Below are positions 49,977-64,000 of a stretch of DNA of 64,000 nt, in pieces. Location: contig NZ_CP013074.1 of the NCBI RefSeq assembly GCF_001889305.1, positions 558,001 to 622,000 of the forward strand. Direction: 5' to 3'. Under the pieces are notes generated by a model. That model saw only the letters and a list, made by a program, of their open reading frames with translations, ran no database searches and was not told the origin of the DNA. This DNA is from Dehalococcoides mccartyi. GTDB taxonomy: Bacteria; Chloroflexota; Dehalococcoidia; Dehalococcoidales; Dehalococcoidaceae. The position numbers and the translations under genes are program-made. The first letter of the stretch is position 1, and every line of letters begins with the position of its first letter.

Positions 49977-50699
49977 TCAAATCTGCAGGGTACTGAAAAA
50001 CCCTATTCTATTACCAAGTATCAGTATACCAATAAATATCAGTATCACGCCACTTGCACCGTATATGGCAGCTGAATAGTGGCTAATTTTACCTATCAAA
50101 GGCAGAGTTTTTTGAAGGAGCAACCCTAATGCAATAAATGGTATACCCATGCCCAGTGAAAAAACAGCCAGCAGTGCCGAGCCGTAAAGCGGGTTTTCTC
50201 CTCCGAATGTAATAGTTAGTATACTGCCCAGCACCGGGCTGATGCAGGGTGTCCAGGCAAGGGTGAAAACCGCCCCGCTTAGGAAAGACCTGGCATAACC
50301 GCTCATTTTAAGGTTTTGTGGGCTGGCCAGATGCTTTTCAAAATTGATTGACGGGAAACGAAGGCATAGCAGCATGTACCCACCAAAGATGATAAGCATT
50401 CCCCCTGAGAGTATCCTTACCCAGAGGTCACTGGGGTTTATAATAACCCCGCCCAGCCCGGCTAAAGCCCCAAGACTGGTAAAGATAAGGCTGAAACCGG
50501 CTACAAAGGCCACTGAATGCCGCAGGGTTTTATAAGAAATGGCGGAGTTTGGTTTAGCATCAAGTATCTCGGCTCCCGTCAGGCTGGCTAAATAAATAGG
50601 CATCATAGGCAGTACGCATGGGGAGAAAAAGGCGGACAGTCCGCCGGCAAGGGCTAAAAGGTAAGAGATATCTTCCAAACCCGTTCTGCACCTTCCCAT
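49977..50699 (-). CDS. ccdA: CcdA-like transmembrane thiol-redox protein
   Basis: This 240-residue protein has six predicted membrane helices and the CcdA signature AGGLSAFFSPCVLPMMPIYLASLTG (Cys in SPCVLP), and a second Cys in the WTPCISPVLGS segment. These two cysteines carry reducing power across the membrane to the ResA-like protein encoded 1 nt downstream. A later TTG (50678) starting LEDISYLL is an alternative start. It is divergent from the nuclease gene. Confidence 0.9.
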   Translation of the reverse strand: MGRCRTGLEDISYLLALAGGLSAFFSPCVLPMMPIYLASLTGAEILDAKPNSAISYKTLRHSVAFVAGFSLIFTSLGALAGLGGVIINPSDLWVRILSGGMLIIFGGYMLLCLRFPSINFEKHLASPQNLKMSGYARSFLSGAVFTLAWTPCISPVLGSILTITFGGENPLYGSALLAVFSLGMGIPFIALGLLLQKTLPLIGKISHYSAAIYGASGVILIFIGILILGNRIGFFSTLQI

Positions 50700-50761
50700 A
50701 ACCCTGAAAACAAGGCTATAATGTACTTTAATATTATATCAGTTTTACAGGCGGAGTATTT

Positions 50762-51901
50762 ATGCGTCCCCTTTCCTACAGTCAGATAGACCAGTACCTG
50801 AGTTGTCCTTTAAAATACCGTTTTCTTTATATTGACGGCCTAAAGCCGTTGGAAAAGGGGTATTTCAGCTTTGGTACTACCCTGCATGACTGTGCGGAGC
50901 ATTTTTTCAGAATAAAAGTACCTCCTCCACCCAGTTTGGAAAAGATGCTGGAATATTATCGCTTGCACTGGCGGTCTGAAGGGTATGAGTCTGTTGAGGC
51001 AGAAGAAAACTACCGCCAGTTAGGTAAAGAGATACTTGCGGAGTTCTGCCGTATCCACAGTGCTGATTTTCATATGCCACTTGCAGTGGAATACCAGTAC
51101 ACTGTAAATCTGGACGGAGTTAAGCTGACCGGTAAAATTGACAGGGTAGATAAACTCTTATCCGGTGAACTATGTATTGTGGACTACAAAAGCAACAAAG
51201 ACCTGTTTTCGGCTGAATATGTTCAAAATAACCTTCAGCTGAGTCTTTACCAGCTGGCAGTAGAGCAGATTTGGTTTTTGCCGGTTGGGGAACTTTGCCT
51301 TTATCACCTTCGTTCAAACACCGCCATGCGTTGTTCTGCCCGTAGTAAAGAGGTTATTGCTGATGCCAGGCAACTGGTGCTGGAGGTAGCCGAAAAAATA
51401 GAAAAAGCTATTTTCCCTGCCTGTGAAAACGGTTTTTGCCCGTGTGATTTTGCCCATCTCTGTCCGCTGTATCGCCACAAATACGCACCCCCGCCCCAGT
51501 TACCCGAAGCATCAGCAGTAGATATACCCCGTGCGGTTGAGGAATATGCGGAACTCCAGTCCCGTAAAAGTGAAATAGAAGCCAGAATAGATACTCTGAA
51601 AGAGTCTATTATTGAATACTGCCGTGCCAATTCGCTTGGACGGGTATACGGCAATGAACATTCACTCAGCTACAAAGAGGTTTCGCGTAGCGGGTATAAC
51701 AATCAGGCGGTGCGGGATTTGCTTGTGCCGCTAGGGCTGTGGGACAAGGTTTCCGAATTGGATAAAAGCCTGCTGGAGAAATATCTGGAAACAGATGCCT
51801 GCGGACAGACACTGAAAGAAGAATTGCTGGCTTTAAAGGAAGTTGTATCTACCTCTCCGCGGCTGTATATCAAACAATTTTCAGCCGATAACGATAGCTG
51901 A
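50762..51901 (+). CDS. PD-(D/E)XK nuclease (RecB/AddB/Cas4-like)
   Basis: This 379-residue protein has the AddB/Cas4 nuclease core: LSYSQIDQYLSCPLKYRF with Cys15, GTTLHD, GKIDRVDKL (motif II Asp), VDYKSNK (motif III Glu/Lys), and the C-terminal CENGFCPCDFAHLC set (about 220-233), which completes a four-Cys Fe-S staple. The extra ~130 C-terminal residues include a helical part. No Cas gene or helicase partner is adjacent, so it may act in DNA repair. A GGAG site precedes the ATG. Confidence 0.85.
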   Translation: MRPLSYSQIDQYLSCPLKYRFLYIDGLKPLEKGYFSFGTTLHDCAEHFFRIKVPPPPSLEKMLEYYRLHWRSEGYESVEAEENYRQLGKEILAEFCRIHSADFHMPLAVEYQYTVNLDGVKLTGKIDRVDKLLSGELCIVDYKSNKDLFSAEYVQNNLQLSLYQLAVEQIWFLPVGELCLYHLRSNTAMRCSARSKEVIADARQLVLEVAEKIEKAIFPACENGFCPCDFAHLCPLYRHKYAPPPQLPEASAVDIPRAVEEYAELQSRKSEIEARIDTLKESIIEYCRANSLGRVYGNEHSLSYKEVSRSGYNNQAVRDLLVPLGLWDKVSELDKSLLEKYLETDACGQTLKEELLALKEVVSTSPRLYIKQFSADNDS

Positions 51902-51921
51902 AAGTGCAGGTTTGCAGATAG

Positions 51922-52410
51922 ATGTTTTTTCAAATGATTGGTGTGTTTTTACTGGCGCTGGTGGAAATCTGGCTGGCCATACCGGCTGGTTTGATTTGGG
52001 GTTTGCACCCAGCTCTGGTTATTCTGCTGGTATGCGGCGGTACTTTAAGCGGCGTAGGTATTATTATTATTCTTTCAGAAAGAATACGGGCAGGCTCAAA
52101 CCGCTGGCTGGATAAAAACCGTACGGGTGATGCCTCTGCAAGCCTGTCAGCACTCTTTGCCCAGATTATTGCGGCTTTGCAGGAAAGGCTTCATTCGGGC
52201 CGGCTGTACAAAATATGGTTAAAATACGGAATTATAGGGTTGGGTCTTTTGTCACCCGTGTTAACCAGTGCCCCCTTAGCTGCCTTTTTAGGGGTGATGC
52301 TAAACGCAGACAAGCTGAAGCTGTTTATCTGGATATCAGCAGGGGTAGCGGTTTGGACAACTGGGCTCACGTTGGCTATGTATTTTGGTTTGATACTGCT
52401 GGGAATCTAA
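51922..52410 (+). CDS. Small multidrug export family protein (COG2426)
   Basis: This 162-residue membrane protein has the COG2426 pattern: N-terminal helix LLALVEIWLAIPAGLIWGL, then a second helix with GGTLSGVGIIIIL, a polar loop, and two C-terminal helices (GLGLLSPVLTSAPLAAFLGVML and AGVAVWTTGLTLAMYFG). It lies 20 nt after the nuclease. The transport role is only inferred from the family name. Confidence 0.75.
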   Translation: MFFQMIGVFLLALVEIWLAIPAGLIWGLHPALVILLVCGGTLSGVGIIIILSERIRAGSNRWLDKNRTGDASASLSALFAQIIAALQERLHSGRLYKIWLKYGIIGLGLLSPVLTSAPLAAFLGVMLNADKLKLFIWISAGVAVWTTGLTLAMYFGLILLGI

Positions 52411-52520
52411 GAATATATCCGAAATGCTTAGTAAAAAATCAAAAAACCTGATGCTAAAAGTAAAAACATGTGGTACAATAAATTCTAGCAAACAAAGAGG
52501 CAGATTGCTAAAATTTATTA

Positions 52521-52549
52521 TTGTTCGGGTATTTTAACAGTGTTATACT
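52521..52549 (+). promoter_or_regulatory. Promoter of radical SAM-nrdJ operon
   Basis: TTGTTC (52521-52526), 17 bp and TATACT (52544-52549) give a start near 52556, with a ~44-nt leader carrying a small AGCCT/AGGCT hairpin before the GGGGGA ribosome site. No cobalamin riboswitch core is visible in the 52411-52599 interval. Confidence 0.5.
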
Positions 52550-52599
52550 TATAAGAGCGAGCCTTCCCATAGGCTTGCTAATCATGTTTGGGGGATTGA

Positions 52600-53349
52600 A
52601 TGAAGGTTTATCATCTGGCATATGAGCCAAGTTACCATTCAATGGATTTTCATTTTTGGACTGAATGTAATTTAAAATGCCGCGGTTGTTATACCAATTA
52701 CGAGGTTTACGATTTTGGTCTGCTGGATGATCCTGTAGCTGAGATAATTACCCGTGAAAGGCAAGCCCCTCCCACTAAATTTCTAACGTTTGACCAGGTT
52801 ATGGAAAAGATAGATGGCTATACTATAAAATATGCGGTTTTTCTGGGTACGGAGGCGGTGCTTGACCCTGAGCTGCCTAAACTGGCTAAGGCTGTCCATG
52901 AAAAATACGGCTCTTACAATATTCTGCTAACCAACGGTATCAGGATGCCTGACCTTACAGATATTGACCAGGTTATTTTCAGCCTGAAGGCGTATTCCGA
53001 AGATATATATCGTGATTATACCAGCCGCTCAAATAAATCCGCGCTGGAAAATCTGAAGAAGATACATGCTTCATTAGGTGAGCGCAAACTCCATGTAGAA
53101 GTGGTGTACATACCTGATTATATAGCCAAAGACGAAATAGAAAAGGTAGCCCAGTTTTTAGCCAGCATAGATAAAGATATGTCTTTCCGCATTGACGCTT
53201 ATTTCCCTATTCCGGGTTGTCCTTGGCGGGCGGCCAACAAGGAAGAAGTGGAAGAAGCAGCCGAAGTTGCCCGCAAGTACCTGAACAATGTAGTGGTACT
53301 TACGTTGGATATGAAACGAATCGGTGATAAGGCAGTTAAGGTTTTTTAA
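52600..53349 (+). CDS. Radical SAM protein coupled to class II RNR
   Basis: This 249-residue protein has the radical SAM Fe-S motif CNLKCRGC (CX3CX2C, about 24-31) after FHFWTECN, and a short SAM-domain barrel. It is too long and too divergent to be a standard NrdG, though its partner is a ribonucleotide reductase: nrdJ starts immediately after its stop, with no gap. The only role suggested by the context is in RNR function or nucleotide metabolism. The exact reaction is unknown. Confidence 0.75.
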   Translation: MKVYHLAYEPSYHSMDFHFWTECNLKCRGCYTNYEVYDFGLLDDPVAEIITRERQAPPTKFLTFDQVMEKIDGYTIKYAVFLGTEAVLDPELPKLAKAVHEKYGSYNILLTNGIRMPDLTDIDQVIFSLKAYSEDIYRDYTSRSNKSALENLKKIHASLGERKLHVEVVYIPDYIAKDEIEKVAQFLASIDKDMSFRIDAYFPIPGCPWRAANKEEVEEAAEVARKYLNNVVVLTLDMKRIGDKAVKVF

Positions 53350-55149
53350 ATGACAGTAGAATCCGGCAGACAATCAGTTGTGATAGCAGCACGTTTATCC
53401 ACTACCGCCAAAAGGGTATTGGAAAAGCGGTATCTCAAAAAAGATGCTGACGGACGGGTGATTGAAACGCCTGAGGATATGTTCCACAGGGTAGCCAGAG
53501 TAGTAGCTTCTGCCGAATATAAATATGCACCGGGTGCGGATATAAGCCGTATTGAAGAGGAATTTTATCAGGCTATGTTCCGCCTGGAGTTCCTGCCCAA
53601 TTCACCCACCTTATTGAATGCCGGGCGGCAAGTAGGGCAGCTTTCAGCCTGTTTTGTTTTGCCGGTAGAAGACTCCATTGAATCTATTTTTGATGCCGTA
53701 AAACAGACAGCTCTTATTCATAAAAGCGGGGGCGGCACAGGGTTTTCATTCTCCGACCTGCGTCCTGCCGGAGATAGGGTTGGGGAACTCACCGAAGTGG
53801 CCGGCGGCCCGGTCTCTGTAATTAATATATTTGCTGCAGCAGCAGATTATGTGCGGCAGGGTGGGGTTCGCCGCGGGTGTAACGCCGCTATTTTAGATGT
53901 AACTCATCCCGATATCCTTAATTTTATCTCCTGCAAGGGTGACCCGAATGCCCTGACCAATTTTTATATTTCAGTTGTGGTAACCCGAGACTTCATGACC
54001 AAAGTACGAAATGGTGAAGATTACGATATTATCAACCCGCACACCGGTGAGGTAGTTCAGCGGCTAAACGCCGCCTGTGTGTTTGATCGTATTGTGGACC
54101 AGGCTTGGAAAACGGGTGATCCGGGTTTGGTATTTATAGACCGTATAAATGATGATAATCCCACCCCGTTATTAGGGCGCATCAAGCATGTAAGCGGTTG
54201 CGGAGAGCAAACCCTTCTGCCATATGAATCTTGCAATCTTGGTTCAATCTCTTTGCCTCGTATGCTCAAGCGTGATGGCGAACGGGTAGTGGTAGACTAT
54301 GAAAAGCTGGGGCGGACAGTTAAAATGGCTATCCGCTTTCTGGATAATGTAATAGATGTAAACAAGTTTCCTACTCCTGAAATTGAAAAAGCCACGCTGC
54401 GTAATCGCAAAGTAGGCTTGGGGGTTATGGGTTTTGCCGATATGCTGGTTTTGATGGGTATACCATACAATTCCGAAGAGGCTATATTTCAGGCTGACCA
54501 GATAATGGAATTTATTAAAGAAACTTCCCACCGTGCTTCGTCAAAACTAGCCGAAGTCAGAGGGTCTTTCCCTGCTTATGAAGGCAGTATTTATGACGTA
54601 CCGGGCGGACGCCCCATGCGGAATGCCACTTGTACCAGCATAGCTCCCACCGGCACGCTTTCCATTATAGCCGGGGTATCTTCGGGCATAGAGCCTTCTT
54701 TCGCTATGGTATTTGTCAGGAATATACTTGATGGTGAAAACCTGCTGGAGATAAACCCGTATTTTGAAGAAATGGCCAGACGCGGAGGTTTCCATTCAAA
54801 AGAGCTGTTTGAGAAACTGGTTTCCTCAAACCATCTGCATGATATAGAGTGTATACCGGACTGGCTTAAACGTCTGCTGGTTACTGCTCACCGCATTCGC
54901 CCCGAATGGCATATCCGTATTCAGGCGGCTTTCCAAAAGTATACTGATAATGCTGTTTCCAAGACGGTAAATTTCTCCCATGAGGCTACCCGTGAGGATA
55001 TGGCGAATGTGTTTAATATGGCCTATGACAAGGGGCTTAAAGGGATAACAGTATACCGTGACGGAAGCCGGGCAGCTCAGCCTTTATGCACCTGCGAATC
55101 AGGTGTAAAGCTGGTAGACCAGTATCTGGATAACTGCTCCTGTCGTTAG
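53350..55149 (+). CDS. nrdJ: Adenosylcobalamin-dependent (class II) ribonucleotide reductase
   Basis: This 599-residue enzyme has no ATP-cone and is shorter than most NrdJ proteins. Catalytic residues are visible: Cys101 in SACFVLPVE, and CGEQ (Cys284, Glu286) followed by YESCNLGS. The C-terminus ends with cysteine pairs (CTC and CSC) that should re-reduce the active site. It makes deoxyribonucleotides with B12 as radical source, which fits an organism that depends on corrinoids. The start directly follows the radical SAM stop codon. Confidence 0.93.
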   Translation: MTVESGRQSVVIAARLSTTAKRVLEKRYLKKDADGRVIETPEDMFHRVARVVASAEYKYAPGADISRIEEEFYQAMFRLEFLPNSPTLLNAGRQVGQLSACFVLPVEDSIESIFDAVKQTALIHKSGGGTGFSFSDLRPAGDRVGELTEVAGGPVSVINIFAAAADYVRQGGVRRGCNAAILDVTHPDILNFISCKGDPNALTNFYISVVVTRDFMTKVRNGEDYDIINPHTGEVVQRLNAACVFDRIVDQAWKTGDPGLVFIDRINDDNPTPLLGRIKHVSGCGEQTLLPYESCNLGSISLPRMLKRDGERVVVDYEKLGRTVKMAIRFLDNVIDVNKFPTPEIEKATLRNRKVGLGVMGFADMLVLMGIPYNSEEAIFQADQIMEFIKETSHRASSKLAEVRGSFPAYEGSIYDVPGGRPMRNATCTSIAPTGTLSIIAGVSSGIEPSFAMVFVRNILDGENLLEINPYFEEMARRGGFHSKELFEKLVSSNHLHDIECIPDWLKRLLVTAHRIRPEWHIRIQAAFQKYTDNAVSKTVNFSHEATREDMANVFNMAYDKGLKGITVYRDGSRAAQPLCTCESGVKLVDQYLDNCSCR

Positions 55150-56150
55150 GTATGTTTATTCATGCGGGCAAAAACAGCTAAAATCTCCGGGTCAAACTGT
55201 ATACCTGAACAGCGTTTCAGCTCTTCCCAGGCTTCTTTATCTGTCATAGCCTTGCGGTATGGTCTTAAAGAGGTCATGGCATCATAGGCGTCAGCCAGTG
55301 CCATTATTCTAGCTCCCAGCGGTATTTCATCTCCTTTTAGCCCATCAGGATAACCCCGTCCGTTAAAATGCTCATGGTGGTGGCGGACTATTTTCAATAT
55401 TTCACGGTCTTCGGTGATGGGGGAAAGTATGCGTTCGCCTATGCCGGGATGGGTTTTTATATGATTGTATTCTTCTTCGGTCAGGTTGCCGGCTTTATTC
55501 AGACAAACACTTCTGATACCTATTTTGCCGATGTCATGAACCAACCCTGCTAAACGTATCTGCTCAATGGCAGCAGCAGGCAGTTCCATAGCGCTGGCAA
55601 TAGAAACCGAGGTTTCAGCTACCCGCTGTGAATGACCTATAGTGTAACTGTCTTTAGCCTCAAGTGCATAGGCCAGAGAAGTTATGGCATTAAAAAAGGA
55701 ACTGCGTATTTTTTCCGCCTGGTCTTTTATCTTTAACTCCAGATGCTGCTGGTAATCACGATTGTCCAGTATTAGACGGCGTTTTTCCAGTGCCCGCTCT
55801 ATACTCATCATCACCGCATCCAGTTTAAAAGGTTTGGTCACATAATCATAAGCGCCCAGCTTCATGCAGTTTATAGCGGTATCTGTATCGCTGATGGCAG
55901 TAGCCATTATAACGGCGGTATCAGGTGAACCAATGCGGATTTCGGGTAAGATATCCATGCCGGAAATCCCAGGCATTTTTATATCCAGTATTGCCAGTGC
56001 GATATTATTGTTTTTTACAATTTCCATAGCCTCGGCGGCATTTGGGGCGGTCAGGCATTTATAGCCTTCTCCGGTTATTTTCTGGCAAAGCAAACGGCGG
56101 ATTGTATCTTCATCATCTACCGTTAAAATAGTTTCATTTTTTGTAGTCAT
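55146..56150 (-). CDS. Response regulator with HD-GYP domain
   Basis: This 334-residue protein has a receiver domain (Asp56 in ILDIKMPG, VTKPF) followed by an HD-GYP c-di-GMP phosphodiesterase-type domain with HDIGKIGI (about 212-219), HPGIGE, HHEHFNGRGYPDGLKG and DAYDAMTS. The GYP residues appear as GRGYP. It lies 28 nt after the histidine kinase gene, with which it presumably forms a pair. Actual c-di-GMP activity is inferred only from the motifs. Confidence 0.88.
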   Translation of the reverse strand: MTTKNETILTVDDEDTIRRLLCQKITGEGYKCLTAPNAAEAMEIVKNNNIALAILDIKMPGISGMDILPEIRIGSPDTAVIMATAISDTDTAINCMKLGAYDYVTKPFKLDAVMMSIERALEKRRLILDNRDYQQHLELKIKDQAEKIRSSFFNAITSLAYALEAKDSYTIGHSQRVAETSVSIASAMELPAAAIEQIRLAGLVHDIGKIGIRSVCLNKAGNLTEEEYNHIKTHPGIGERILSPITEDREILKIVRHHHEHFNGRGYPDGLKGDEIPLGARIMALADAYDAMTSLRPYRKAMTDKEAWEELKRCSGIQFDPEILAVFARMNKHT

Positions 56151-56178
56151 GCGTACCCCTTAGAATATCCGCCGGTTT

Positions 56179-58737
56179 TTAATCTGGCTGGTTGATTGGA
56201 AGCTCTATAAAAAAGGTAGCACCCTTACCTTCGGAACTTTCTGCGTACAGTTTACCACCATGCTGGGTGATTATACCATGCCCGATAGACAGTCCTAATC
56301 CAGTACCTTTGCCTACTTCTTTCGTGGTAAAGAAAGGGTCAAATATATGTTTTAGGACGTTTTCAGACATACCCGGACCATCATCCTCAATAGATATCCG
56401 GATACTGTTATCTAGCCTGCAGCTTGTGATGACTATCGTACCTTCCCCATGCGCTTGGGTTATAAAATATTCGGCGTTTATGACTATATTCAATAGTACT
56501 TGTTGCATCTGGAAATAATCTGCCTTAATCTCTGGCAGATTCGGATCCAGATTGGTAACCATCTGGATATTATTAACTTTTTGCCCGTAGTTGCAGATAG
56601 CAAGTACTTTTTTGATTACCTGATTCATATCCACCCAGTCTCTGGCTTGCTCATGGCGGCGGGCAAAGGTAAGCAGGTTCCGGATAATATCAGCTGCCCG
56701 CTGAGCTTCCTGACTGATTATCTGAACATCATGCATTAAATCTTCCGGCAGGTCTTTTTCCTGAATCAGCTCTGAAAATCCTAAAACACTGGTCAGTGGG
56801 TTATTAAGTTCATGAGCCAGGCCGGCAGCCATTTCACCCACTGAAGCCAGCCGGTCAGTTATCATCAGCTGGGCGGCTATTTTATGATGCTCGGTGAGAT
56901 CTTTTATAGTGTGTATGGTTCCCAGAGACTGCCCGTCTGTGTTCAGAATAGGGTCAATTGTTTCCTGAAAATGCTTCTCAATGTTTTCCTCAAAATAATT
57001 AATGTGTTGGGTTTTTTTTGTATTGGAAACTATCAGCTTGGGGCAGCTTTCTTTGGGGCAGTCTTTATGGTGAAGCACTTGGTAGCATTTCTTGTTCAGG
57101 ATATCTTGCGGCTGGCAGTTAAGGGTATTTGTAAAAGCCCGATTTGCCCGCAGGATATTAAAATCATTGTCCAAAAGAAATACTATATCGGATATATTAT
57201 CAAAAGTTATTCGCCATTCTTCTGCCGCATGTAACAACTTGGCATCCACTTTTTTCCGTTCCGTTATGTCCCTTAATACCGCGCAGCAATAATCAACTCC
57301 CTCAAACTCCAGAAAGTTACACATTACTTCAATGGGTATCTGCTGGCCGCTTTTAGTAAATTGGACGGATTCTACCGAGAATTTGATATCATTTTTTAAT
57401 CTGCCCCAGAGGGTTGCCCATTTTTCTGAAATACATACGGGATTTATATCTTTCACTGTTAAATTACGGATTTCTGTATGGGTATAACCCAGTGACTGGC
57501 AGGCGGCCTTGTTTGCGGCTATTATATGTCCTTTTTGGTTGACCCACAGAATGGAATCTGCCGAATGTTCGACCGAAAAGGAGGTGAATTTCAGGTGTTT
57601 TTCAGCCTCTTTGCGCAGTCTGATATCTCTAACTACGGCTATATTGTATTCCACTCCGTCATATTGCATATAGTTAGCGTTGATTTCCACCGGTATTTCT
57701 TCACCGCGTTTGTTTCGGTGTGTGGATTCAAAGTTTAGACGGGTACTATTTTTAAGTTTCTCCCAGTGCCTTATCCAATCAGTCCGGTTGGTTATAAAAG
57801 TGTCTATATCTGTTACGTTTAATTTTAGCAAGTCTTCACGTTTATAGCCGAGAGAGTCACAGGCTGATTGGTTTACATCTGCAAAATTACCCTCGGAATC
57901 GGTCCAGAATATGGCATCTGTGGTTCGTTCCACTGCAAATCTGGTCAGGAGCAATATTTTTTCAGATCTTTTGCAGATTGTGATATCTCTGGCTGATAGC
58001 TGCAGATATGGCGAGCTGGTATTCCGGTTAATTATCCGGCTGTAAACGGAAAGCCAGCAAGTTTGGCCATTCTTAAGTGTCAGCCTAATCTCAACAGGTT
58101 GGGTGCTGTCTGTTTTGGTGTCTTGAAGCATTTGGTTAATAAGGTCAGCTGCTTCACTGCTGAATAAGCCGCAGGATTTCCAGTTATCACCGGCAATTTC
58201 GTTTAAAAAATAACCGGTTATTTCCTCAAATATCTGGTTAGCAAATATCAGTTTACCGTCAGGCTGGAAACCCATTACCAGAGGAAGGGCAGGCAGGGTT
58301 TTATCCGGAAAAACCGGATAATCCGGATTATGCTGAACCTGAGATTGACACTGTATAACACAAATCAGTTTATCTGAGAAAAGTTTACATAATAATTCTG
58401 CCGAAAGGGGGAAGCCATTTTTGCAGGGGATATAGCAGGGTATAGGTCTTGAAGATGTTTTAAATTGAGGGAGCTTTTGGGTATCGGTATTCAAACCGGC
58501 GGCTTTAAATATATCTTTCATCAGAGCAGGGTTAGAGAGGTATTCGGCAGGGGAATAACCACTGATAGCGGATGAGTTTGAACTGACATAAGTCAAGCGT
58601 GGCTTGGGTGAGGTTTCGAATATAAAAAACAGATTTCGGGTACTTTCTATCAAGGAAAGTATCTCGGTCAGGTTTACACTTTCGGGCAAAACACTTTGCT
58701 CTGCAGTTGTGCGGCAGGATTTATACTGATCTTCCAT
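56179..58737 (-). CDS. Soluble multi-PAS sensor histidine kinase
   Basis: This 852-residue kinase has no obvious membrane helix or signal peptide. Five PAS-like regions can be marked at about 25-130, 145-255, 263-375, 384-495 and 505-620. The fifth has CYQVLHHKDCPKESC, a cysteine-rich insert that could bind a metal or redox cofactor. The H-box is HELNNPLTS with His642, followed by the N-box and DGPGM, GTGLGL ATPase motifs. It is followed by the HD-GYP regulator, its probable partner. Confidence 0.9.
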   Translation of the reverse strand: MEDQYKSCRTTAEQSVLPESVNLTEILSLIESTRNLFFIFETSPKPRLTYVSSNSSAISGYSPAEYLSNPALMKDIFKAAGLNTDTQKLPQFKTSSRPIPCYIPCKNGFPLSAELLCKLFSDKLICVIQCQSQVQHNPDYPVFPDKTLPALPLVMGFQPDGKLIFANQIFEEITGYFLNEIAGDNWKSCGLFSSEAADLINQMLQDTKTDSTQPVEIRLTLKNGQTCWLSVYSRIINRNTSSPYLQLSARDITICKRSEKILLLTRFAVERTTDAIFWTDSEGNFADVNQSACDSLGYKREDLLKLNVTDIDTFITNRTDWIRHWEKLKNSTRLNFESTHRNKRGEEIPVEINANYMQYDGVEYNIAVVRDIRLRKEAEKHLKFTSFSVEHSADSILWVNQKGHIIAANKAACQSLGYTHTEIRNLTVKDINPVCISEKWATLWGRLKNDIKFSVESVQFTKSGQQIPIEVMCNFLEFEGVDYCCAVLRDITERKKVDAKLLHAAEEWRITFDNISDIVFLLDNDFNILRANRAFTNTLNCQPQDILNKKCYQVLHHKDCPKESCPKLIVSNTKKTQHINYFEENIEKHFQETIDPILNTDGQSLGTIHTIKDLTEHHKIAAQLMITDRLASVGEMAAGLAHELNNPLTSVLGFSELIQEKDLPEDLMHDVQIISQEAQRAADIIRNLLTFARRHEQARDWVDMNQVIKKVLAICNYGQKVNNIQMVTNLDPNLPEIKADYFQMQQVLLNIVINAEYFITQAHGEGTIVITSCRLDNSIRISIEDDGPGMSENVLKHIFDPFFTTKEVGKGTGLGLSIGHGIITQHGGKLYAESSEGKGATFFIELPINQPD

Positions 58738-58896
58738 ATCCTTACGCTTTTTAACCTATATTTTGTTACAGGAGCAGGGCAGAGGCCTCAGGTATATTCA
58801 GGTATGACCAATTTCAGTATAGCAGGAGGAATGTCCATTTGTCATGTGTTTTGACAAAAAAAGAGCCTTACTTCGGATAAATAATGACAAAAGGCA

Positions 58897-59229
58897 TTAA
58901 AACATCAGGCCTTCGCGGCATTCGCGGTGCTTGAAACTGGGCTGATAGTCACGGCAGGCTTGCGGCTTGAAATCATGGATGGTACACAGGGATAAGTTGT
59001 CTATCCCGCGTCCTAAAAAAATACAACCATTCTCATTATGGCGTATAAGCATGGTTCGGTGTCCCGGCCAGCGTTTATCGGCGTATATTTCCTTGAAATC
59101 TTCAAGGCTAAGACTCAGATGCTTGGCAATGCTTTGGGCTTCGTCCATTTCCAAGTGGGGCTGAAAGTGAAGGCAACAGTTGCCGCAGCGCCTGCATTCG
59201 AAAACATCGGTATTTGCTATATCGTTCAT
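58897..59229 (-). CDS. YkgJ-family cysteine-cluster protein
   Basis: This ~110-residue protein has the YkgJ pattern: CRRCGNCCLHF near the N-terminus, then CIFLG, CTIHDFKPQACRDY and a last CREG, eight or so Cys that bind zinc or an Fe-S cluster. I chose the ATG at 59229 (MNDIAN): the next upstream ATG, at 59238, lies inside the -10 box, and 59229 has the same 7-nt spacing from TATAAT as ruvB. The function is unknown. Confidence 0.75.
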   Translation of the reverse strand: MNDIANTDVFECRRCGNCCLHFQPHLEMDEAQSIAKHLSLSLEDFKEIYADKRWPGHRTMLIRHNENGCIFLGRGIDNLSLCTIHDFKPQACRDYQPSFKHRECREGLMF

Positions 59230-59236
59230 GTACTTC

Positions 59237-59266
59237 ATTATAAATGCCGGTTTGTGCTATTATCAA
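59237..59266 (-). promoter_or_regulatory. Leaderless promoter of YkgJ-like gene
   Basis: On the minus strand TTGATA (59266-59261), 18 bp and TATAAT (59242-59237) lie 7 nt before the chosen ATG at 59229, with no ribosome site. It points away from the Ig-repeat gene promoter, and their -35 boxes are only 7 bp apart. Confidence 0.65.
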
Positions 59267-59273
59267 GGTGATG

Positions 59274-59301
59274 TTGATTACTCACGTGTAAGTGATATAA
59301 T
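59274..59301 (+). promoter_or_regulatory. Leaderless promoter of Ig-repeat protein
   Basis: TTGATT (59274-59279), 16 bp and TATAAT (59296-59301) lie 9 nt before the ATG at 59311. No Shine-Dalgarno is present, so the mRNA should begin at or within a few bases of the start codon. Confidence 0.65.
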
Positions 59302-59310
59302 CAGTAAAGC

Positions 59311-60576
59311 ATGAAAATGAAAAAAGACTACATAATTAGACTTTTAGCTACTCTGGTTATAAGTGTAGCAATGTTTTTTGCTACTCCCTCTGTAAACAGG
59401 GCTGCTCTGGAAGGGCAGCTGTTTTTTTCTGATACTATTATCAAAGTAGGCACAGAGCTTACGGTTTATGGTCAAAATTTCTTGCGCCAGAGTGATGTAA
59501 AGCTGTTTTTTGATGATGAGGAAGTTGCCATTGGGGCGACTAATCAACTGGGTGAGTTTACTCTCAGCTTTATTGTTCCGCCATCAGGACGTGGATTGCA
59601 TGTTGTAAAGGCTTTGGATGCGGATTACAACATGGGCAGCGGGTTGGTTTTGGTTGAAAGCTGGATTGACCTGTCTAAATCTGAGGCGGCCATTGGCGAG
59701 ACTGTTAACATAAATGGCACAGGATTTACCCCTTTAACTGCAGTCAGTTTTTATTACAATGATACCCCGCTGACTGTAGTACCCGGTGTTGTTAAGGCTG
59801 ATATTACAGGAAGTTTTTCGGTAAGTTTTACAGTTCCTGAACGCTTTGCAGGTATTTACCTGGTGGAAGTGCGTCAGGGGGAATACATAAATAGTCAGAG
59901 TTTAAAAACTAACGTCTGGCTGGATATTAACCCCGAAATAGGTTTGGGCAAGCTGCTGGACGTGGGTACGGAACTGAACATTTCCGGCAAAGGCTTTAAA
60001 CCTAATGGGCAGGTAGATTTGCAGTATGACGGGATTTCTTTGCTGAAGGCATTTACAGATAGCAGCGGTACTTTTTCAGTTCAAATCACTATCCCATCCA
60101 GTGTAGCTGCTTCGCATACCCTGATATTAGATGATGGGCAAAACCGTATTGTGAGTGAAATCTGGTTGGAAAATACACCTCCGGCCGCACCAGTTATCAC
60201 ACTGCCTGCTTCAGGTGAGGCGCTGAGTTATCCGTTTATCTTTGGCTGGGAAGGGGTAAGCGATGCAAGCGGTGTGGAGTATGTTTTGCAGATAGCTTCT
60301 GACAGCGGGTTTAGCGGTATATTGCTGGAGATAAAAGGTATAAAAACCAGCCAGTACATATTAACCGATAACGAAGATATAAACAGTTCTGAGGCTGCAA
60401 ATTTCTACTGGCGTGTTAAAGCGGTTGACGGTGCCGGTAACGCAGGGGACTGGTCTGAAGCAAGTGTTTTTGGCAGGGTTTCACTGGTTCAGAATTTGGG
60501 TTTGGTTGTTGGGGTGGGAGCGGGGCTTATCGCTATCGTAGTGTTTATGTGGTGGACTATTCGGAACCGCCGCTAG
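59311..60576 (+). CDS. Secreted Ig-like (IPT/TIG-type) repeat protein with C-terminal anchor
   Basis: This 421-residue protein has a signal peptide (about 1-31), three related beta-sandwich modules (about 31-115, 117-205 and 206-290, each with VG or GTELT...GxxF... strands like IPT/TIG domains), a fibronectin-type region (about 295-385, EYVLQIASDSGF) and a hydrophobic segment (about 393-415) with a basic tail (RNRR). It looks like an envelope surface protein, such as an adhesion or S-layer associated factor. A leaderless promoter drives it. Confidence 0.75.
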   Translation: MKMKKDYIIRLLATLVISVAMFFATPSVNRAALEGQLFFSDTIIKVGTELTVYGQNFLRQSDVKLFFDDEEVAIGATNQLGEFTLSFIVPPSGRGLHVVKALDADYNMGSGLVLVESWIDLSKSEAAIGETVNINGTGFTPLTAVSFYYNDTPLTVVPGVVKADITGSFSVSFTVPERFAGIYLVEVRQGEYINSQSLKTNVWLDINPEIGLGKLLDVGTELNISGKGFKPNGQVDLQYDGISLLKAFTDSSGTFSVQITIPSSVAASHTLILDDGQNRIVSEIWLENTPPAAPVITLPASGEALSYPFIFGWEGVSDASGVEYVLQIASDSGFSGILLEIKGIKTSQYILTDNEDINSSEAANFYWRVKAVDGAGNAGDWSEASVFGRVSLVQNLGLVVGVGAGLIAIVVFMWWTIRNRR

Positions 60577-60623
60577 CTCTAAAAAATATTTTTTGCCACC
60601 TCTTGCCTTACGTTTGGGCTTCC

Positions 60624-60651
60624 TTGACAGTAGCTATGTTTCGTGTAGAAT
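60624..60651 (+). promoter_or_regulatory. Promoter of kamA-ligase operon
   Basis: TTGACA (60624-60629), 16 bp and TAGAAT (60646-60651) give a start near 60658. An AAGGAGG ribosome site lies at 60698-60704, ahead of the GTG start at 60717. Confidence 0.7.
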
Positions 60652-60716
60652 AATACTCATAGTGACGTGTACCTGTGGTAACCGCCATAAATTGTTAAGG
60701 AGGCTTCAAGCCTAAC

Positions 60717-62036
60717 GTGACCACTACTGAAAAAAACGAAAACAAACAATCGGATGACCCTCTTGGCTCAGGTGCAGTTGAAACTTGTGGTAAGGTAGAT
60801 GATGAGCCTCCCAGTAGGCTTAACCAAACTAAGAAATTTAGACTTAAATATTTCCCCAAGGTAAGTGACCAGGATTGGAATGACTGGCACTGGCAATTCA
60901 AGAACCGTGTTACTTCTGTAGCAGAAATAGCAAGGTTTTTTCATTTGTCTGCAGAAGAATACCGGGATATGGATTCGGTTTCTGCAGTATTCCCCTTGTC
61001 TGCTACTCCGTATTATCTCAGTCTGATAGATTTTGATAATGTTAATGATCCTGTAAAACTTCAGCTTATGCCTGACACAGCGGAACTTTGTTTTGATGCC
61101 CATTGTTGTTCTGATCCCTTGGGAGAAGAGCATAGTTCGGTAGTGCCGGGGCTGGTACACCGCTATCCTGACCGAGTGGTTATGGTACTGACTGATATTT
61201 GTCCGGTGCTTTGCCGCCACTGTACCCGTAAAAGAGAGTGGAAAAATGGTGGTTGGGTGCACACTCAGGCTGAGATAGATGCCATGCTGGCTTATATACG
61301 CCAAAATCCTGTTATCAGAGATGTAATTATATCCGGCGGTGACCCTTTGACTCTATCCACATCTCGTTTAGAGAGTGTCCTTTCGGTTTTGCGTTCTATA
61401 CCCCATGTGGAAATAATCCGCATAGGCACGCGCTATCCTGTCGTTTTGCCCCAGCGGATAGATGATGAACTTTGTAATATGCTTTCCAAGTACGGGCCTA
61501 TCTGGCTTAATACCCATTACAATCACCCTAATGAAATTACAGAAGAATCCCGCCGTGCCTGTGACCGTTTGGTCAGAGCAGGTGTGCCTGTTAATAACCA
61601 GTCTGTGCTTTTAAAAGGCATAAATGACAGTGTGGCTATTCAAAAATCTCTGTGCCATAAACTCCTGATGAGCAAGGTCCGTCCGTATTATCTGTTCCAG
61701 TGTGATAACGTACAAGGGACAGAACATTTCCATACCACTATTGAAACAGGGGTGGGTATTATTGAGGGTTTGCGTGGTTATACCTCCGGTTTGGCTGTAC
61801 CGAATTATGTCATAGATTTGCCCGGGGGTGGCGGCAAGATTACTGTCCAGCCGGACTATGTGCTGGATAAACAGGCTGACGAATATATAATCCGTAATTA
61901 TAAAGGGGATATAATCCGTTTTAAAAATCCAGTTGGTCACAAGGTTTTAGGCAATAAAGTGAATACCGTCAATGTGAAAACTGCCGCCAAAATAAATGGA
62001 GAAGCAAATGCAAATAGGGCTGTCATACGATCTTAA
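60717..62036 (+). CDS. kamA: KamA-family lysine 2,3-aminomutase
   Basis: This 439-residue radical SAM/PLP enzyme has CPVLCRHC (Cys162, 166, 169) and the PLP lysine K374 in LPGGGGK. The two aspartates that, from my recollection of the clostridial enzyme (D293 and D330), grip the lysine side chain align with D330 (FQCD) and D367 (VIDLPG). That favours L-lysine over glutamate as substrate, giving L-beta-lysine. The GTG start has AAGGAGG upstream. It overlaps the ATP-grasp gene by 29 nt. No AblB acetyltransferase is adjacent. Confidence 0.88.
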   Translation: MTTTEKNENKQSDDPLGSGAVETCGKVDDEPPSRLNQTKKFRLKYFPKVSDQDWNDWHWQFKNRVTSVAEIARFFHLSAEEYRDMDSVSAVFPLSATPYYLSLIDFDNVNDPVKLQLMPDTAELCFDAHCCSDPLGEEHSSVVPGLVHRYPDRVVMVLTDICPVLCRHCTRKREWKNGGWVHTQAEIDAMLAYIRQNPVIRDVIISGGDPLTLSTSRLESVLSVLRSIPHVEIIRIGTRYPVVLPQRIDDELCNMLSKYGPIWLNTHYNHPNEITEESRRACDRLVRAGVPVNNQSVLLKGINDSVAIQKSLCHKLLMSKVRPYYLFQCDNVQGTEHFHTTIETGVGIIEGLRGYTSGLAVPNYVIDLPGGGGKITVQPDYVLDKQADEYIIRNYKGDIIRFKNPVGHKVLGNKVNTVNVKTAAKINGEANANRAVIRS

Positions 62037-63024
62037 ACAGGCATTAAAACCGGTTGCCGGCGGCCCTGATGATGCGTTGGAAGAATATGACTCACCGGAA
62101 ACGGTAGAGGCTATAACAACCGCCTTGAAGGCAGCGGGTCATACCGTTTACCGCTTGGGCGGGGGCAAAGAATTTTTACGCAGGGTGCAGGAACAGAAAC
62201 TTGACCTTGTTTTCAATATTTCCGAAGGGTTGGGTAATTACCGCAGCCGCGAAGCTCAAATCCCCAGTATTTTAGAGATGTTAGATATACCTTACACAGG
62301 TTCAGATCCGCAGACACTTGCAATCTGTCTGGACAAACCTCTCACCAAGAAACTGGTAGCCAGTGCAGGTATAAAGACTGCCAGATGGCAATTGGTAAAC
62401 AACTGTGAAGAGCTTTCTGCTATAGACTGGTCGGGATTTCCATTGCCGGCTTTTTTGAAGCCCGCCTGTGAGGGGTCAAGCAAGGGTGTAAGGTTTGCTT
62501 CACGTGCCGAAAGTATTGACGAGATAATGAGTATGGCTGCGGATCTGCTGACTACCTATGAGCAGCCTGTTTTAATAGAAGAATTTATAAACGGTGAAGA
62601 GATTACAGTAGGGGTTATAGGCAACACCTCCCCCGAGGTTTTGGGTATAATGCGGGTTGTGCCTAAAACTAAGACTGATTATTTTGTTTACTCTATAGAG
62701 GTTAAGCGCAACTGGCGGCAGATGGTGGAATATGAAGTTCCGGCGGCTTTACCCGGGGAAACTCTGGCGCGGATTGAAAAAGCCACCTTGGATGCGTATA
62801 AAGTATTGGAATGTCGTGACCTGTGCCGTATGGATTTCAGAATAAGCCCTGACGGCGTGCCGTATTTTCTGGAGGTAAACCCGTTGCCCGGTCTTAACCC
62901 TGTCAGCGGGGATTTGCCGATTATGGTATCTAAATTGGGTATCAGCCATGCAGAGTTGGTGTTAAAAATACTTAACACGGCAATGGTTCGCCACAATCTG
63001 TTAGCGGAGAACTGCCTGCTCTAA
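62008..63024 (+). CDS. D-Ala-D-Ala ligase-like ATP-grasp ligase
   Basis: This ~338-residue ATP-grasp protein has Ddl-like blocks: FNISEGLGNYRSREAQ (about 71-86, replacing the Ddl HGxxGEDG loop), IPYTGSD, LDKPLTKKL, KPACEGSSKGV (about 149-159) and LEVNPLPGLNP. I set the start at 62008 (GGAG spaced for it) rather than 61996. The replaced first loop suggests a different amino-acid substrate from D-Ala. Sharing a unit with kamA, it may join beta-lysine to another residue. Confidence 0.85.
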   Translation: MQIGLSYDLKQALKPVAGGPDDALEEYDSPETVEAITTALKAAGHTVYRLGGGKEFLRRVQEQKLDLVFNISEGLGNYRSREAQIPSILEMLDIPYTGSDPQTLAICLDKPLTKKLVASAGIKTARWQLVNNCEELSAIDWSGFPLPAFLKPACEGSSKGVRFASRAESIDEIMSMAADLLTTYEQPVLIEEFINGEEITVGVIGNTSPEVLGIMRVVPKTKTDYFVYSIEVKRNWRQMVEYEVPAALPGETLARIEKATLDAYKVLECRDLCRMDFRISPDGVPYFLEVNPLPGLNPVSGDLPIMVSKLGISHAELVLKILNTAMVRHNLLAENCLL

Positions 63025-63046
63025 GTTTGCTATAGCGGTTATGTCC

Positions 63047-63070
63047 AAGCCTCCTTCGGGAGGCTTTTTA
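63047..63070 (+). terminator. Terminator after kamA-ligase operon
   Basis: AAGCCTCC (63047-63054), a TTCG tetraloop and GGAGGCTT (63059-63066) form an 8-bp stem followed by a short T-tract. It separates the kamA operon from the Fur gene. Confidence 0.9.
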
Positions 63071-63096
63071 ATTGGGGACCATTATGTTGGCATGTC

Positions 63097-63125
63097 TTGA
63101 TATTTCAAAAAGCCGAAGCTATAAT
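63097..63125 (+). promoter_or_regulatory. Promoter of Fur/Zur-znuA operon
   Basis: TTGATA (63097-63102), 17 bp and TATAAT (63120-63125) give a start near 63132. The AGAAGGA ribosome site and GTG start at 63156 follow. The -35 overlaps TGATATTTCA, a short imperfect palindrome that could be part of a metal-regulator site. Confidence 0.7.
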
Positions 63126-63155
63126 TGAGAAAAGGTATCATTTAGAAGGATTTAC

Positions 63156-63587
63156 GTGTCAACTATTCAAAGCCGCATACGCCAAAATAAATATAAGATA
63201 ACTCCCCAGAGGCAGGCCGTTTTGAAGGTGCTTTCCAGCGCAAACCAGCCGCTAAGTCCAGCCGAAGTGCATAAATTGGTACAGTCAGATAAACCGTCAA
63301 CCGGTATGGCTACTGTGTACCGTTCATTGCAGCTTCTTGCTGAGCTGGGCCTTATTTGTGAGCTCCATACCGCCGGAAATTGTCATCGTTACCTGCTTAA
63401 ACGTATAGATTCCCACCATCATCATCTGATATGTTCCGGTTGCGGCCAAGTTGTTCATGTAGAGGGTTGCGGGCTTCAAGAAATTACAGAAAATTTATCC
63501 CGGCAGACAGGATTTGCCATTGATACCCATTTGCTGGAGTTTATAGGGCGGTGCCGGAATTGTCAGAAGGAGACTGGTAAGGTATGA
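63156..63587 (+). CDS. Fur-family metal regulator (Fur or Zur)
   Basis: This 143-residue regulator has the winged-helix start (YKITPQRQAVLKVL), the TVYRSLQLLAELGLI recognition helix, the His-rich SHHHHLICSGC block, and two structural CxxC pairs (CSGC and CRNC). The start is GTG with AGAAGGA upstream. It overlaps the znuA-like gene (ATGA), so it probably controls zinc or manganese uptake rather than iron. Confidence 0.9.
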   Translation: MSTIQSRIRQNKYKITPQRQAVLKVLSSANQPLSPAEVHKLVQSDKPSTGMATVYRSLQLLAELGLICELHTAGNCHRYLLKRIDSHHHHLICSGCGQVVHVEGCGLQEITENLSRQTGFAIDTHLLEFIGRCRNCQKETGKV

Positions 63588-64000
63588 AATACAGGACATT
63601 ATTTTTGGGTGTGGCTTTGGGGGTTACACTTTTGAGCAGTTTCCTTTTGGCTGGCTGTCAGGAAGAATCATCTTCTGCAGATAAATTGAAAATTGCAGTC
63701 AGCATAGTACCGCTTAAAGAGTTTACCCAGCAAATTGCCGGGGATAAGGCAGAAGTAGTGCTCATGGTTCCTCCCGGAGCCGAGCCCCATACATATCAGC
63801 CGCTTCCTTCGCAGATGGTAGATATCAGTCAGTCAGATATGTACGTGAAATTGGGTTCTGATTTTGGTTTTGAACAAAACTGGCTTTCAAAGATATTGTC
63901 GTTAAATAACTCTATGCTGGTTGTAGACAGCTCGGTAAATATTACCCTGGAGCGTAGTTCCGAAGACGGTGGGGCGGACCCGCATATCTGGCTTTCACCC
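63584..64000 (+). CDS. Zinc/manganese ABC transporter binding protein, N-terminal part (cut by window end)
   Basis: The 139 visible residues start with a lipoprotein signal (LLAGC, lipid Cys about 25), then IAVSIVPLKEFTQQIAGDKAEV, PPGAEPHTYQP with a metal-binding His in EPHTYQP, and end within DPHIWLSP, the second His motif of cluster A-I metal-binding proteins (ZnuA/AdcA/MntC type). No His-rich loop is visible so far. It is coupled to the Fur-like gene by ATGA. The gene runs off the window. Confidence 0.92.
   Translation, partial: MKYRTLFLGVALGVTLLSSFLLAGCQEESSSADKLKIAVSIVPLKEFTQQIAGDKAEVVLMVPPGAEPHTYQPLPSQMVDISQSDMYVKLGSDFGFEQNWLSKILSLNNSMLVVDSSVNITLERSSEDGGADPHIWLSP

Follow-up and report, generated by a model that had tools for sequence, protein, structure and literature searches.

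Candidate leaderless gene starts placed head to head between a YkgJ-like gene and an Ig-domain protein gene in Dehalococcoides mccartyi

Known gene-start designs and the layout of the locus

Back-to-back divergent promoters that share an intergenic region and have their -35 boxes next to each other are a known arrangement in bacteria. TA-led genes, as described by Zheng et al. 2011 (PMC3160421), are characterized by a TATAAT-like box some 10-12 nt upstream of the start codon, which in Chloroflexi has the pattern TAtaaT. The locus studied here shows the same pattern and differs in that two such genes lie head to head; the main text of that paper contains no occurrence of Dehalococcoides. It also shares the neighbouring -35 boxes of divergent promoters, with the difference that both of its genes are, by their sequence, near-leaderless. 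The arrangement is a further instance of an already known gene-start design and not an unusual one. In open-licence papers, which provide weak evidence of absence, no transcript-start map was found for Dehalococcoides, and no title was on the topic of leaderless initiation in this genus.

The window is the whole stretch of 64,000 nucleotides that was analysed (G000:C1:558001-622000), derived from a 1.52 Mb genome with 46% G+C; positions are counted from its first letter. Features of the locus are as follows.

58897..59229, minus strand: YkgJ-like gene (CxxCxxCC, putative Zn/Fe-chelating domain; Pfam PF03692, E 1e-09), start taken as ATG 59229
59237..59242, minus strand: -10 box TATAAT, 7 nt upstream of ATG 59229, invariant in 3/3 genomes
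59261..59266, minus strand: -35 box TTGATA, spacer of 18 to the -10 box, invariant in 3/3 genomes
59274..59279, plus strand: -35 box TTGATT, spacer of 16, 4/6 columns invariant (TTGATT, TTGAAT, TTGATA)
59293..59301, plus strand: extended -10 box TGATATAAT, 9 nt upstream of ATG 59311, invariant in 3/3 genomes
59311..60576, plus strand: ORF of a TIG/Ig-domain protein gene (Pfam PF01833 TIG, E 7e-11)

The sequence-only reading had proposed near-consensus promoters in both directions, and its boxes and coordinates proved correct, including the distances of 7 and 9 nt between TATAAT and the two ATGs. Consensus scores are 11/12 for the minus promoter and 10/12 for the plus promoter, in which TATAAT occupies 59296-59301 and a TG one base ahead makes the -10 box an extended one. 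The 7 bp reported between the two -35 boxes were recovered at 59267-59273. Likewise, the lack of a Shine-Dalgarno (SD) site held, as none of five SD-like tetramers (AGGA, GGAG, GAGG, AAGG, AGGT) occurs within 20 nt upstream of ATG 59229 or ATG 59311. The longest ORF of the YkgJ-like gene begins at 59238, and the in-frame ATG at 59238-59236, the first of this frame, overlaps the minus -10 box. The size of 73 bp given for the compact region is the gap counted from ATG 59238; once 59229 is taken as the start, 81 bp separate the two ATGs. A search for known RNA elements gave no Rfam match at gathering score within 58700-60800. The TIG/Ig-domain protein is probably exported, judging by eye from a signal-like N-terminal stretch and a hydrophobic C-terminal stretch.

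We consider two near-leaderless genes placed head to head the best reading of these features, and a probable one. Two separate housekeeping-type (sigma-70-like) promoters would stand back to back, each with a transcription start no more than about 3 nt away from its own start codon. The predicted first base is the A of ATG 59229 on the minus strand and about 59308-59309 on the plus strand, where, judged by the spacing, the mRNA may have a short leader of 2-3 nt. Both mRNAs would leave no room for an SD site and would be read as leaderless. It is from sequence that we infer where transcription starts, that the mRNAs are translated leaderless, and the choice of 59229 over 59238. With footprints of typical size, RNA polymerases at the two promoters would overlap by about 30 bp, and interference between them is possible.

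Chance, conservation and the choice of start codon

A consensus scan of positions 50000-64000 detected 28 promoter sites, with 26.7 expected. This total is at chance level, and consensus match alone consequently means little. One or both promoters could then be a fortuitous match in AT-rich DNA, in line with the near equality of back-to-back TATAAT pairs 42-68 nt apart and their backward control in G000 (13 vs 12), and with about 6 of 20 gene-start matches being expected from composition. However, in 362 of 40,000 dinucleotide-shuffled versions of 59230-59310 a promoter scoring at least 10/12 stood in this geometry on one side or the other, but in none on both, the layout is kept in 3/3 genomes, and none of the other 12 TATAAT pairs of G000 has an ATG 5-11 nt off on both sides. 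The placement of promoters adjoining the two start codons exceeds chance, and we regard a fortuitous match on either or both sides as very improbable. Of these 12 pairs, four have such an ATG on one side; in two of the four (L101 and L102) TTG or GTG stands on the other side, but the frames opened there are just 1 and 13 codons long. In G000-G002, several TATAAT pairs are almost identical in sequence, such as those at G000:C1:910885 and 449202.

Similarity at the DNA level was found in 3/41 searched genomes, the genome studied and two others of the genus. In all three, which make up the whole conservation sample and are closely related, the minus -35 and -10 boxes, the 7-nt distance (TATAAT-7-ATG), the plus TGnTATAAT-9/10-ATG, the spacer lengths, and the distance between the -35 boxes are kept. 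Invariant columns amount to 24/26 in promoter boxes and 37/55 elsewhere in the region separating the ATGs (one-sided p 0.012, from three sequences only). In the plus spacer, 7/14 columns are invariant, and it is G001 that differs. An imperfect palindrome seen by eye in this spacer (59280-59293) was considered as a shared operator and set aside because of the 7/14 columns that vary.

Substitutions in G002 bear on both start codons. At 59317 the Ig protein has Lys instead of its second Met, which modestly favours the Ig start at 59311. The longer YkgJ frame has CCC in place of TAC at codon 3, with the -10 box and ATG 59229 unchanged, and this modestly favours 59229 as the YkgJ start.

Alternatively, a more distant promoter that gives a true leader could also feed one or both genes, and ATG 59238 would then be used on a longer YkgJ mRNA. 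ATG 59238 is indeed kept in 3/3 genomes, although its presence is implied by TATAATG itself. No SD-like motif was found ahead of 59238 or 59229, codon 3 of the longer frame is the one changed in G002, and the promoter scan lists no other same-strand site scoring at least 9/12 over more than 1.5 kb upstream of either gene, from 59267 to 61012 for the minus strand and from 57525 to 59274 for the plus strand. A contribution from such a farther promoter is in our view unlikely. The proposed exclusion of ATG 59238 as the YkgJ start is likely, on the condition that the gene is fed by this promoter alone. For annotation, the YkgJ gene start should probably be corrected to 59229.

Frequency of the geometry at gene starts

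To estimate how common this geometry is, a G000 sample of 464 kb was used, with 400 ORFs predicted by a home-made script combining ORFs and codon scores, which places starts approximately; scoring was limited to ATGs no farther than 105 nt from the longest start. Promoter boxes in this geometry precede 20/628 candidate ATGs, each in a different gene. Dinucleotide shuffling of the 48 nt upstream gives 6.1 (sd 2.6), and 0/200 shuffles reach 20; about a third of the matches (~6) are in this way accounted for by base composition alone. Internal ATGs show the geometry in 5/1638 cases (Fisher p 7e-8), a control which probably overstates the enrichment, since coding DNA is probably less AT-rich.

Counts in consecutive 7-nt distance windows are 20 (5-11 nt), 16 (12-18), 12 (19-25), and 27 (26-32), followed by 7-15 sites in each window from 33 to 88 nt; inside the first window, 9 sites peak at a distance of 9 nt. 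The 5-11 nt window stands out against composition, yet leadered promoters are at least as common, with the 27 sites at 26-32 nt. Upstream of first ATGs, SD-like motifs are far commoner than these boxes.

The same analysis in other genomes disclosed 6/174 candidate ATGs in G001 (1.7 in shuffled sequences, reached by 1/200; internal ATGs 4/540), and 5/168 in G002 (1.3 shuffled, 2/200; internal 1/522). G003, of another genus of the same family, has 10/159 (1.3 shuffled, 0/200; internal 1/445). Within 104 kb around the window there are six matches, for which counterparts of like sequence were recognized by eye for 6/6 in G001 and 5/6 in G002. The sixth is the Ig gene itself, whose promoter is present in G002 and which was missed because the frame is open 132 nt further upstream, outside the start rule.

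The excess of about 14 in 400 genes corresponds to roughly 3-4% of genes. This is near the values for TA-led leaderless genes in 4/12 Chloroflexi genomes described in PMC3160421 (4.0-5.7%). The sample yields twenty candidates for leaderless initiation, six of them compared with relatives. Prediction of two leaderless mRNAs at the studied locus gains support at the level of sequence from this excess (20 vs 6.1 shuffled) and from conservation in 3/3 genomes, with the reservation that the plus mRNA may have its 2-3 nt leader.

The divergent pairing, its relatives and its surroundings

Proximity of the two promoters raises the question of whether the genes are coupled through a shared control region, either by one regulator or by mutual exclusion of RNA polymerase. 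In favour of coupling, the -35 boxes are only 7 bp apart, and boxes and distance are kept in 3/3 genomes. Furthermore, back-to-back TATAAT pairs over 11 family genomes (G000-G010) number 114 vs 63 in the backward control and exceed it in 9/11, a surplus which may mean that such layouts are favoured in general.

Counts of gene pairs argue otherwise. The G000 sample contains 49 divergent pairs, 24 with a gap below 200 bp, and leaderless-type starts occur in 10/48 genes of these short pairs. Independence predicts about 1.0 double leaderless-type pair, and the 1 seen is the studied pair, itself counted; when it is left out (8/46 genes), about 0.7 double pair is expected. In the G003 sample, one wider divergent pair (342 bp) is double. 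Double pairs are about as frequent as independence predicts, so the studied pair needs no special cause. Promoters of this type are fairly frequent ahead of divergent genes with a short gap, and the pairing is probably an ordinary consequence of this. Coupling is also at odds with the variable half of the plus spacer, the possible place of an operator, and with the genes not being divergent neighbours in any of eight genomes of the other genus. Taken together, a shared control region is quite unlikely.

In a stronger form of the same idea, the overlap of the polymerase sites would cause the two leaderless genes to exclude each other or to be co-regulated. The locus would then act as a minimal switch from a metal-chelating-type protein to a surface protein and back, and would be kept in the genus for this reason. 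We hold this to be very unlikely; if it were true, the family-wide excess of TATAAT pairs would point to a wider trait. Two near-leaderless genes with separate promoters remain the preferred reading.

Relatives of the YkgJ gene were found in 21/41 genomes and those of the Ig gene in 35/41. They are divergent neighbours in 0/8 genomes of the family's other genus, probably Dehalogenimonas (G003-G010); G009 and G010 have them about 3.5 kb apart and facing each other. YkgJ starts were inspected at 19 loci of 26 matches, and 18 have a candidate start, 3 of these from the genus itself. Among the other 16, promoter-like boxes close to the start are present in G005 (TATAAT 6 nt before ATG, -35 match 4/6), G011 (TACAAT 6 nt before ATG, -35 match 5/6 with a spacer of 19), and G003 (TATAAT 9 nt before TTG, -35 match 3/6). 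By comparison, an SD-like motif lies 4-9 nt before a candidate start in at least 6 of these 16 (L028, L032, L104, L105, L108, L109). The start mode of YkgJ seems, by sequence, to switch between relatives, and these mixed starts outside the genus indicate that leaderless initiation is not a constant feature of the gene. Among YkgJ relatives from other genera, -10-like boxes 6-9 nt before a candidate start were noted for L033, L035, and L110. In a paralogue of the Ig protein from the genome studied, AAGGAGG lies a short way upstream of the start region.

Downstream of the Ig gene, positions 60717-62036 hold a KamA-family radical SAM gene, which passes TIGR00238 and falls short of the thresholds set by the models for lysine, glutamate and arginine 2,3-aminomutase. 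The Ig gene itself contains a strong terminator-like hairpin at 59400-59430, some 90 nt past its ATG (9-bp stem, 3-nt loop, then seven T). A 55-nt piece with this hairpin folds at -14.4 kcal/mol, and values in two relatives are -9.9 and -11.3 with shorter T runs; the hairpin is possibly a coding coincidence. Terminator-like sites in 50000-64000 number 28, twice the expectation from shuffled sequences (14.3, sd 3.9).
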